This document shows, in pieces, positions 16,864 to 17,734 of a stretch of DNA of 33,868 nt; positions within the stretch are counted from its first letter, which is position 1; every line of letters starts with the position of its first letter. The DNA comes from Gammaproteobacteria bacterium. GTDB taxonomy: Bacteria; Pseudomonadota; Gammaproteobacteria; GCA-001735895. The stretch spans positions 1-33,868 of the forward strand of contig JAHEKJ010000031.1 in the NCBI GenBank assembly GCA_024638385.1, in the 5' to 3' direction. The translations under genes and the position numbers were made by a program. The notes below the pieces were generated by a model, which saw only the letters and a program-made list of their open reading frames with translations, did no database searches and was not told the origin of the DNA.

Positions 16864-16895
16864 GTAAAATAAGGGCGCCTGCGATGCAGGCGCCC
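16864..16895 (-). terminator. Rho-independent terminator after tRNA-His
   Basis: A perfect 10-bp stem (16895-16886 with 16882-16873, GGGCGCCTGC/GCAGGCGCCC) and a 3-nt loop, followed on the minus strand by TTATTTTAC. This would end the tRNA-Pro/Arg/His transcript and implies that tRNA-Leu and tig either rely on read-through or have their own promoter in the 65 bp before tRNA-Leu. Confidence 0.65.
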
Positions 16896-16986: not shown

Positions 16987-17308
16987 TGGCACGCCCGGCA
17001 GGATTCGAACCTGCTACCCTCGGCTTAGCATACCACTACGCCTTTCGACGCCCCGCACGCGGGTTTGTGGTCTGGACTATCTCTTCACCGTCTCAGGTGT
17101 CGCACGTATAGTCTCTACGGATCCCCCGCCGTGGCCGGGTTTCCTCGGGATTGCCATCGGCCCGACCATGATCCGGTCGGCCGTTAAGGTTTCCCCGATA
17201 CAGTGCGATCCACTCTACGGGTTCCGTTTCCCCGCAGAGGCTCCTAACAGCATAACCCCGGGTTATGCGCTCAAAGGCCGATGCTCTATCCGAATGAGCT
17301 ACGGGCGC
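16987..17308 (-). tRNA. tRNA-Arg(UCU), split by a group I intron
   Basis: Exon 1 is 17308-17274 (35 nt) and exon 2 is 17028-16987 (42 nt). Joined, they make a standard 77-nt tRNA: acceptor GCGCCCG/CGGGCGT (G1-U72 wobble), D-stem GCTC/GAGC, anticodon stem TCGGC/GCCGA, a 7-nt loop CTTCTAA with anticodon UCU, T-arm GCAGG-TTCGAAT-CCTGC, discriminator G and an encoded CCA. The loop equals that of E. coli argU (tRNA-Arg UCU). The 245-nt insertion lies between U34 and C35, inside the anticodon. Without splicing the gene cannot yield a working tRNA for AGA codons. Standard scanners that do not allow introns will miss it or mis-call it. Confidence 0.93.
17029..17273 (-). ncRNA. Group I self-splicing intron in tRNA-Arg(UCU)
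   Basis: A 245-nt intron. The 5' exon ends in U and the intron ends in G (17029), as group I splicing requires. Elements seen: P2, CTCUGCGGG-type 9-bp stem right after the guide; P3, UCGCAC (17208-17203) with GUGCGA (17105-17100); P7, GACUAU (17113-17108) with AUAGUC (17080-17075); P8, CACC/GGUG between them; P5 hairpin CCGACC/GGUCGG; P9 hairpin CCCGC/GCGGG. Conserved strings GGGGAAACC, GUAGAGACUA and AUAGUCCAGA resemble the Azoarcus tRNA-Ile intron, so subclass IC3 is likely. The guide at 17247-17241 pairs with both exons. No open reading frame for a homing endonuclease exists inside. T is written as U here. Confidence 0.92.
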
Positions 17309-17317
17309 TCGGAATAC

Positions 17318-17446
17318 CTTTCCTGGGGAGGATTTTTTTGCGATGGCCGCGTCAGCACCGTGCTCGGACCTCACGTATGTCTATATACGCTGCGGTCCTG
17401 CGCGCGGTGCCTCCTTGCCCTCGCAAAAAAATCCTCCCCAGGAAAG
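17318..17446. repeat. 128-bp palindromic element between tRNA-Pro and tRNA-Arg
   Basis: Perfect 26-bp inverted repeats (17318-17343 and 17421-17446, beginning CTTTCCTGGGGAGGA and containing a T7/A7 run) flank a 77-bp centre. The centre is itself an imperfect palindrome: GCACCG/CGGTGC, GGACC/GGTCC and an ACGTAT/ATACG core. The whole could fold into one long hairpin, like a small non-autonomous mobile element or a dispersed intergenic repeat. No transposase gene and no clear target-site duplication are visible. It separates two genes that are close together in related tRNA clusters. Confidence 0.75.
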
Positions 17447-17557
17447 ACATTACGCAAACCTGAAATCAGGCTCGCCAAGACCCTTGTCCCTGGGGCTTCG
17501 CGGGATCGGATTTTACCGGTTTCGGGAGGTTTGCGACAGACCCGCCGAGATCAAATT

Positions 17558-17705: not shown

Positions 17706-17734
17706 ATGATACGCCGATACCCGTCGAGGGTCAA
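17706..17734 (-). promoter_or_regulatory. Promoter of the tRNA-Pro/Arg/His cluster
   Basis: Minus strand TTGACC (17734-17729), exact 17-bp spacer, TATCAT (17711-17706), followed by a GC-rich stretch starting TCCGCGCC. A near-consensus sigma-70 promoter with a GC-rich discriminator is typical of stringently controlled stable RNA genes. Confidence 0.7.

Follow-up and report, generated by a model that had tools for sequence, protein, structure and literature searches.

The interrupted gene and its surroundings

The window, by which we mean the whole analysed stretch of 33,868 nucleotides, carries on its minus strand (17308-16987) a tRNA-Arg(UCU) gene that is interrupted within the anticodon. The joined exons form a tRNA of 77 nt with the anticodon loop CUUCUAA. 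The sequence bears out the first-pass annotation both in this reconstruction, from exons 17308-17274 and 17028-16987, and in its description of a 245-nt insert that starts after U34 and ends in G. ARAGORN reported no tRNA-Arg(UCU) gene at this locus. The features are collected in Table 1.

The open reading frames beyond tRNA-Leu are presumably tig, clpP, clpX and lon. Because a promoter-like site precedes tRNA-Pro and a terminator-like hairpin lies past tRNA-His, the Pro, Arg and His tRNAs may be made as one shared transcript. Between tRNA-Pro and tRNA-Arg we also observed a near-palindrome of 131 bp (17317-17447) with inverted ends of about 26 bp, as judged by eye, which has no second copy in the genome at E ≤ 0.001. 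A reading of this palindrome as a miRNA was rejected, with 36.9 bits for the miRNA model against a cut-off of 94.

Table 1. Features of the tRNA-Arg(UCU) locus in window coordinates, and free-standing endonuclease relatives in the coordinates of their own records
Feature	Position	Strand	Basis or remark
5' exon of tRNA-Arg(UCU), 35 nt, to U34, ending ...CUU	17274..17308	-	1-2 changes in 22 empty-site loci
3' exon of tRNA-Arg(UCU), 42 nt, from C35, CCA encoded	16987..17028	-	sequence
Group I intron, 245 nt, between U34 and C35, probably IC3, without endonuclease ORF	17029..17273	-	
Internal guide GAG	17241..17243	-	sequence and drawn structure; P1 pairing by eye
P10 strand UUAG, pairing with 3' exon CUAA (17028-17025)	17244..17247	-	drawn structure
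P1 extension hairpin, 8 bp	17250..17268	-	sequence varies across the six family introns
P2, 9 bp	17213..17239	-	both-side changes in 9/9 pairs
P3 (17208-17203 with 17105-17100)	17100..17208	-	encloses P4-P6 and the P7 5' strand; both-side changes in 5/6 pairs
P4 (17198-17193 / 17150-17145) and P5	17145..17198	-	drawn structure, co-variation
P6	17119..17144	-	endonuclease gene occupies the P6 loop in relatives
P7 (G17115-C17074, bulged A17114, GACUA 17113-17109 / UAGUC 17079-17075)	17074..17115	-	
P8, between the P7 strands	17099-17096 / 17089-17086	-	both-side changes in 2/4 pairs
P9 with P9a and P9b	17032..17071	-	co-variation
Terminal G (omega-G)	17029..17029	-	sequence
tRNA-Pro	17634-17558	-	one side of the intron-bearing tRNA-Arg(UCU)
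tRNA-His	16978-16902	-	other side of tRNA-Arg(UCU); tRNA-Leu next
Sigma-70-like site, candidate promoter, upstream of tRNA-Pro	17706..17734	-	consensus match only; 3 found in the region vs 0.5 expected
Terminator-like hairpin 3' of tRNA-His	16873..16895	-	consensus match only; 4 found vs 1.3 expected
Free-standing endonuclease relatives (two phages and one viral contig)	L273 2351-2926; L274 2406-2941; L272 1498-1970		

Structure and class of the intron

Helices P2 to P9 can all be drawn as pairings in the window intron, and the core strings GTAGAGACTA and ATAGTCC are both present, in agreement with the earlier reading of P2, P3, P5, P7, P8 and P9 from the sequence. The core that characterizes group I introns, P3-P8 and P4-P6 with the P7 pseudoknot, is found here, and P2-P6, P8 and P9 co-vary. 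The splice sites follow the group I rules, with an exon U opposite a guide G and a G at the end of the intron. P1 consists of three pairs between the exon CUU and the guide GAG, the U.G pair at the splice site being formed by exon U34 and a guide G. The motif GGAG occurs within the first 80 nt in 78 of the 79 introns with both exons (6 from the window's family and 73 others; two entries, L067 and L073, apparently duplicate G012 and G039). The P10 pairing is less constant, with just 2-3 of the window's pairs kept in the other family introns, as judged by eye.

P7 is the guanosine-binding helix of group I introns, and the window P7, with GACUA/UAGUC and a further G-C pair across the bulged A, has the layout of the usual guanosine site. 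The helix is paired and invariant in 24 of 24 introns compared. Introns of the IC3 subgroup have an IC core, are small and often lie in tRNA genes. The P6 segment of the window intron comprises 22 nt between its anchors, and the drawn structure contains no P5 extension domain of the P5(a-d) kind. Such a domain is described as absent from IC3 introns in the available text of PMC11835236, and the window intron probably belongs to this subgroup. Minimum-energy folding with no imposed pairs and no pseudoknots recovers the P1 extension, P2, P3, P4, P5, P6 and P9, and the folding energy has a z-score of -2.9, with 2 of 200 shuffled sequences equally low.

Detection by covariance models and co-variation

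The Infernal search proposed in the first-pass annotation did produce a match to the Rfam model Intron_gpI (RF00028), at 34.6 bits and E = 3.9e-7 for a 601-bp stretch, although this score is lower than the 50-bit gathering score and the intron is for that reason missing from a default Rfam listing. The gathering score is a curator's threshold and not a biological criterion. A second covariance model, R2, was built with a computed consensus structure from 15 introns, to which the six family carriers contributed none (one of the 15, for example L096, may derive from a different genome of the window's family). Model R2 scores the window intron at 201.7 bits and has no second match in the 33.9-kb window at E ≤ 1.

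Co-variation was assessed in 24 tRNA-Arg(UCU) introns, where 92.0% of 1314 cells pair and both-side changes occur in 39 of the 56 proposed pairs. The number of cells changed on both sides is 197, compared with 55.3 in shuffles, and none of 500 shuffles was as high. When the partners are slid by 1-3 columns, pairing falls to 36-43%, a comparison in which the unslid count is favoured because the pairing structure was drawn on the window intron. The presence of a group I intron in this tRNA-Arg(UCU) gene, as first proposed from the letters of the window, is well supported by sequence and structure.

Carriers and empty sites in the family of the window genome

We searched 41 genomes of the family, of which 34 gave a match and 7 did not; the intron is found in 6 of the 41. 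Its length in these carriers is 245 nt (the window and G012), 233, 396, 665 and 674 nt. At 22 of the 24 family loci that lack the intron the two exons are exactly contiguous (gap 0), the other two being cut by contig ends, so that exact empty sites exist in related genomes. An apparent second, partial intron copy in G012 was rejected: it is the end of a contig that runs into the one locus, followed by tRNA-His and tRNA-Leu. In G021, a relative of the window genome, we observed on the minus strand (L348) a second such intron, which by eye lies in tRNA-Leu(UAA).

On a ClpX tree of 27 family genomes the distribution of the intron requires at least five gains or losses, three of them forced by well-supported branches. 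The carriers are not clustered on this tree beyond chance (192 of 500 shuffles were as low), a pattern compatible with gain and with loss alike.

Endonuclease genes in related introns

The 665- and 674-nt family introns contain an ORF in the P6 loop that matches the Pfam family PF11645 (PDDEXK_5) with E = 2.6e-43 and 1.3e-39, respectively. The nearest solved chain to the intron endonuclease L037 is 2ost_A, recorded as a "putative endonuclease" (E = 2.1e-7); 2ost we take to be I-Ssp6803I. No fitting NCBIfam model was found for four endonucleases scanned. The 396-nt family intron (L039) retains an endonuclease remnant of about 166 bp and no long forward ORF, and the window intron has no endonuclease ORF. 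Among the 79 introns with both exons, 23 carry a PD-(D/E)XK endonuclease, 22 of them intact by script (L037, L038 and 20 others) and the remaining one being L086. All 22 script-intact genes stop at the TAG within GTTCCG-TAG-AGACTA (GCTCCG in one), which places the stop codon inside the conserved J6/7-P7 stretch of the ribozyme. To judge from substitution rates, the endonuclease ORFs are under purifying selection, with dN/dS of 0.07-0.30 for 24 pairs among the 25 that have diverged least, the remaining pair being identical; the values are rough because dS is 1.2-1.9. The endonuclease tree mostly tracks the host phyla, so transfers between phyla would be few or old. Among plasmids, one record contained a distant endonuclease relative (30% identity), and model R1 found no intron in that record.

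These data bear on the possibility that the intron was inherited vertically within the window's family and lost many times, instead of homing. The intron identities among the six carriers (75-88%) are similar to the ClpX identities (76-88%), which is compatible with old inheritance accompanied by losses, and copies without an ORF are unable to home by themselves. However, vertical inheritance has to accommodate the five or more changes on the ClpX tree and the intact endonucleases held by two family members. It also fits poorly with the introns of G012, G011 and G001, which are mutually closest (84-88%), whereas the ClpX genes of the same genomes are 82% identical to each other and no closer than to that of the window (81-84%). 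We consider inheritance with many losses possible but unlikely.

Distribution across bacteria and relation to known introns

For the bacterial scan we combined a pattern for the 3' core of the intron with a tRNA 3' half starting CTAAG, in one genome per species; the pattern demands CU in the anticodon, and CCU would also have passed. The scan yielded at least 116 stretches and at least 80 loci in eight phyla. The 5' exon was readable in 74 of the 80 listed loci (73 by script and L105 by eye), and all 74 have the anticodon UCU; the other six have no readable 5' exon, mostly because the stretch ended. According to the database records, the listed loci include at least 46 in Pseudomonadota, 15 in Bacillota, 9 in Bacteroidota and 2 in Omnitrophota, and at least one each in Armatimonadota, Thermodesulfobacteriota, Chloroflexota and Myxococcota, with four unplaced. 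UCU was read in seven of the eight phyla, the exception being Armatimonadota for lack of a read 5' exon, and phyla represented by a single record may be misbinned.

In the window's class, 77 of 369 genomes match model R1 at E ≤ 1e-4. This class, Gammaproteobacteria, includes in GTDB the former Betaproteobacteria, from which Ile2 introns are known. Introns at 89 places in 74 of the genomes (L180-L268) were surveyed for their host genes, with split introns counted once and with the weakest matches and an equally good second match in G286 excluded. The hosts are tRNA-Leu(UAA) in 27 cases, Ile2(CAU) in 19, Arg(UCU) in 18 including the window, Thr(UGU) in 5, Arg(CCU) in 2, Lys(UUU) in 2, and Ser(UGA) and Lys(CUU) in 1 each, with 14 places without an assigned host. 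One of the Leu(UAA) assignments (L193) is doubtful, the joined tRNA being poor and resembling tRNA-Ile(CAU), and in four Leu(UAA) introns, 688-698 nt long, the forward ORFs do not exceed 51 codons. One of the 18 Arg(UCU) introns (L191) lies after nucleotide 36 and so occupies a second site in the same tRNA. Bacilli, the class that includes Lysinibacillus, gave matches at E ≤ 1e-10 in 21 of 250 genomes, and at least four of these genomes were already-known carriers.

The intron of Azoarcus tRNA-Ile(CAU) is of the IC3 type. Like the window copy, it and the Ile2 introns are small IC3-like ribozymes in the anticodon loop with a short P1, but the 19 Ile2 introns of the class survey lie after nucleotide 36, whereas that of the window lies after 34. 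Introns are also known in the tRNA-Arg(CCU) of alphaproteobacteria. They share with the window an arginine tRNA interrupted in the anticodon, but the two found in the class survey again lie after nucleotide 36. The intron of Synechocystis tRNA-fMet carries I-Ssp6803I and resembles the UCU family in combining a tRNA anticodon intron with a PD-(D/E)XK endonuclease, although in another tRNA and another phylum, the similarity being that of L037 to 2ost_A. Beggiatoa and Thiomargarita are large sulfur bacteria of the Gammaproteobacteria. For Beggiatoa BOGUAY and Candidatus Thiomargarita nelsonii, putative group I introns have been reported in tRNA-Arg-TCT, the same tRNA as in the window (PMC4853749), and examples of an intron in tRNA-Arg(UCU) are thus already in print. 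The available text of that paper does not assign their type or structure and mentions neither an endonuclease nor a wider spread. Elsewhere, Ile2 introns have been described in Burkholderia and Acidovorax (PMC8450103), tRNA group I introns have been listed for cyanobacteria, alpha- and beta-proteobacteria (PMC4033280), and tmRNA introns have been found in 21 phyla (PMC11915505). An intron in tRNA-Arg(UCU) is not mentioned in the available text of PMC5733544, PMC6341768, PMC4013482, PMC4090602 and PMC3943268. In the openly licensed literature, searched without a focus on viral tRNA introns, we found no report of a UCU family with an endonuclease or of viral copies. The initial impression that a UCU-arginine host is unusual in a gammaproteobacterium does not hold, given the carriers among the family genomes (6 of 41), the 80 or more bacterial loci and the published Beggiatoa and Thiomargarita cases (PMC4853749).

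Viral copies and free-standing endonucleases

A scan of IMG/VR with a slightly wider pattern than the bacterial one returned 22 contigs (L325-L346), two of which, L326 and L331, are apparently the same sequence. Both exons are clear in 20 of the 22, all in tRNA-Arg(UCU); of the other two, L338 lacks a convincing 5' exon and L342 is truncated. Model R2 matches all 22 contigs, some with a second match elsewhere, and it matches twice in a 484-kb record of an uncultured phage. One of the viral introns contains a PD-(D/E)XK ORF and eight contain another ORF, which was HNH_3 in both of the two scanned. A scan of ten proteins from seven contigs identified replication proteins in L344, L346 and L336 and a partial tail-protein match in L330, only families of unknown function in L332, and no match in L337 and L343. 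The viral label rests mainly on IMG/VR, as replication proteins occur in cells too, and the exons of L335 suggest that this contig may be bacterial DNA next to a prophage.

Among phage records, 53 matched the window query; of the best 10, H23-H25 are weak and H26-H31 span little beyond the tRNA 3' half. The endonuclease query matched 54 phage records, three of which, among the best 20, were examined. In three of the four viral records examined, a free-standing relative of the endonuclease lies beside an intact tRNA-Arg(UCU) gene. These records are Synechococcus phage Sf-FR1, where the relative has 61% identity, Acinetobacter phage Herod, where it has 44%, and an IMG/VR contig, where it has 55%. 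The exception is Enterococcus phage EFP01 (33% identity), where the nearest arginine tRNA is UCG, not UCU. Model R1 found no intron beside any of the four free-standing relatives, its sole match being one of 10.8 bits about 1.5 kb away in Herod. We also noticed by eye that in L272 the endonuclease relative and the tRNA-Arg(UCU) both lie between two halves of another tRNA.

These observations lead us to speculate that the tRNA-Arg(UCU) anticodon could be a home site traded between phages and bacteria, with phages carrying the intron in their own tRNA-Arg(UCU), armed with a PD-(D/E)XK or an HNH endonuclease. Such phages might bring the intron into bacteria on entry; alternatively, the phage enzyme might cut the only AGA-reading tRNA gene of the host while the phage supplies a replacement. 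We put this forward very tentatively and think it rather unlikely to be correct as stated. The viral tRNA copies matter in view of the statement in a 2014 review that all phage introns seen until then were in protein-coding genes (PMC3984707).

Splicing and the decoding of AGA

The source assembly comprises 4.25 Mb in 232 contigs and is 91% complete. It has 25 tRNAs above the cut-off, among which the arginine ones are CCG and CCU, and for example Ala, Asn, Glu, Ile, Lys, Trp, Tyr and Arg(ACG) are absent; with so many tRNAs absent, the list is weak evidence on a UCU gene. The intron is present in the genome in one full-length copy. AGA is rare yet used, accounting for 3 codons among the 7000 in 13 genes of the window. 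The assembly, itself 91% complete, yielded no contiguous UCU gene, and splicing is probably required for the supply of this tRNA. A strict pattern likewise detected no such gene in the 6 family carriers or in 16 other carriers, one of the five other family carriers being rated 100% complete, whereas all three empty-site controls contain one. A gene with a changed D-arm, as in G012, would escape this pattern, and the family genome search found none either.

It is conceivable that the window copy is a dead relic that no longer splices, with the cell relying on another tRNA-Arg(UCU) gene outside the assembly, as the incompleteness of the assembly and the many tRNAs absent from its list mean that genes were missing or missed. 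We consider this very improbable, since the core helices and splice-site rules are kept, the exons are intact, and none of the five other family carriers and 16 further carriers has a contiguous UCU gene. That splicing would serve as a regulatory switch on AGA decoding, for which the rarity of AGA and the want of another UCU gene might speak, is extremely unlikely, as no sensing element was seen, the same intron is present in very different hosts, and a near-neutral parasite accounts for the data. The earlier statement that the AGA-decoding tRNA is placed under the control of splicing is retained only insofar as splicing is probably required.

A probable mobile intron at the tRNA-Arg(UCU) anticodon

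We are confident that the window intron belongs, as a copy without an ORF, to a mobile group I family, probably IC3, whose home site is the tRNA-Arg(UCU) anticodon. The lack of an endonuclease in the window copy and its Rfam score below the gathering cut-off speak against this reading. Since 23 of 79 such introns encode a PD-(D/E)XK endonuclease, the window copy resembles a stripped mobile intron. The distribution of the family is scattered. From the sequences we infer splicing, cutting and homing along the following lines. The pre-tRNA would fold such that P1, formed by the exon CUU and the guide GAG, sets U34 at the active site, and a free guanosine bound in P7 would attack after U34. In the second step U34 would attack behind the terminal G while P10 keeps the 3' exon in place, and this would join U34 to C35 and restore the UCU anticodon. 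In the relatives, the PD-(D/E)XK endonuclease encoded in the P6 loop should cut the uninterrupted gene, and repair would copy the intron in, while the window copy would have retained the ribozyme alone.

Of most interest is the wider picture, in which a family with endonuclease-bearing members has repeatedly occupied one anticodon, both across many phyla and in viral contigs. As the interrupted tRNA-Arg(UCU) is missed by both ARAGORN and the Rfam default, genomes of this kind seem to have no AGA-reading tRNA. In this family one and the same site occurs naturally in empty, armed, decayed and stripped form, so that the homing cycle of such an intron could be tested directly.
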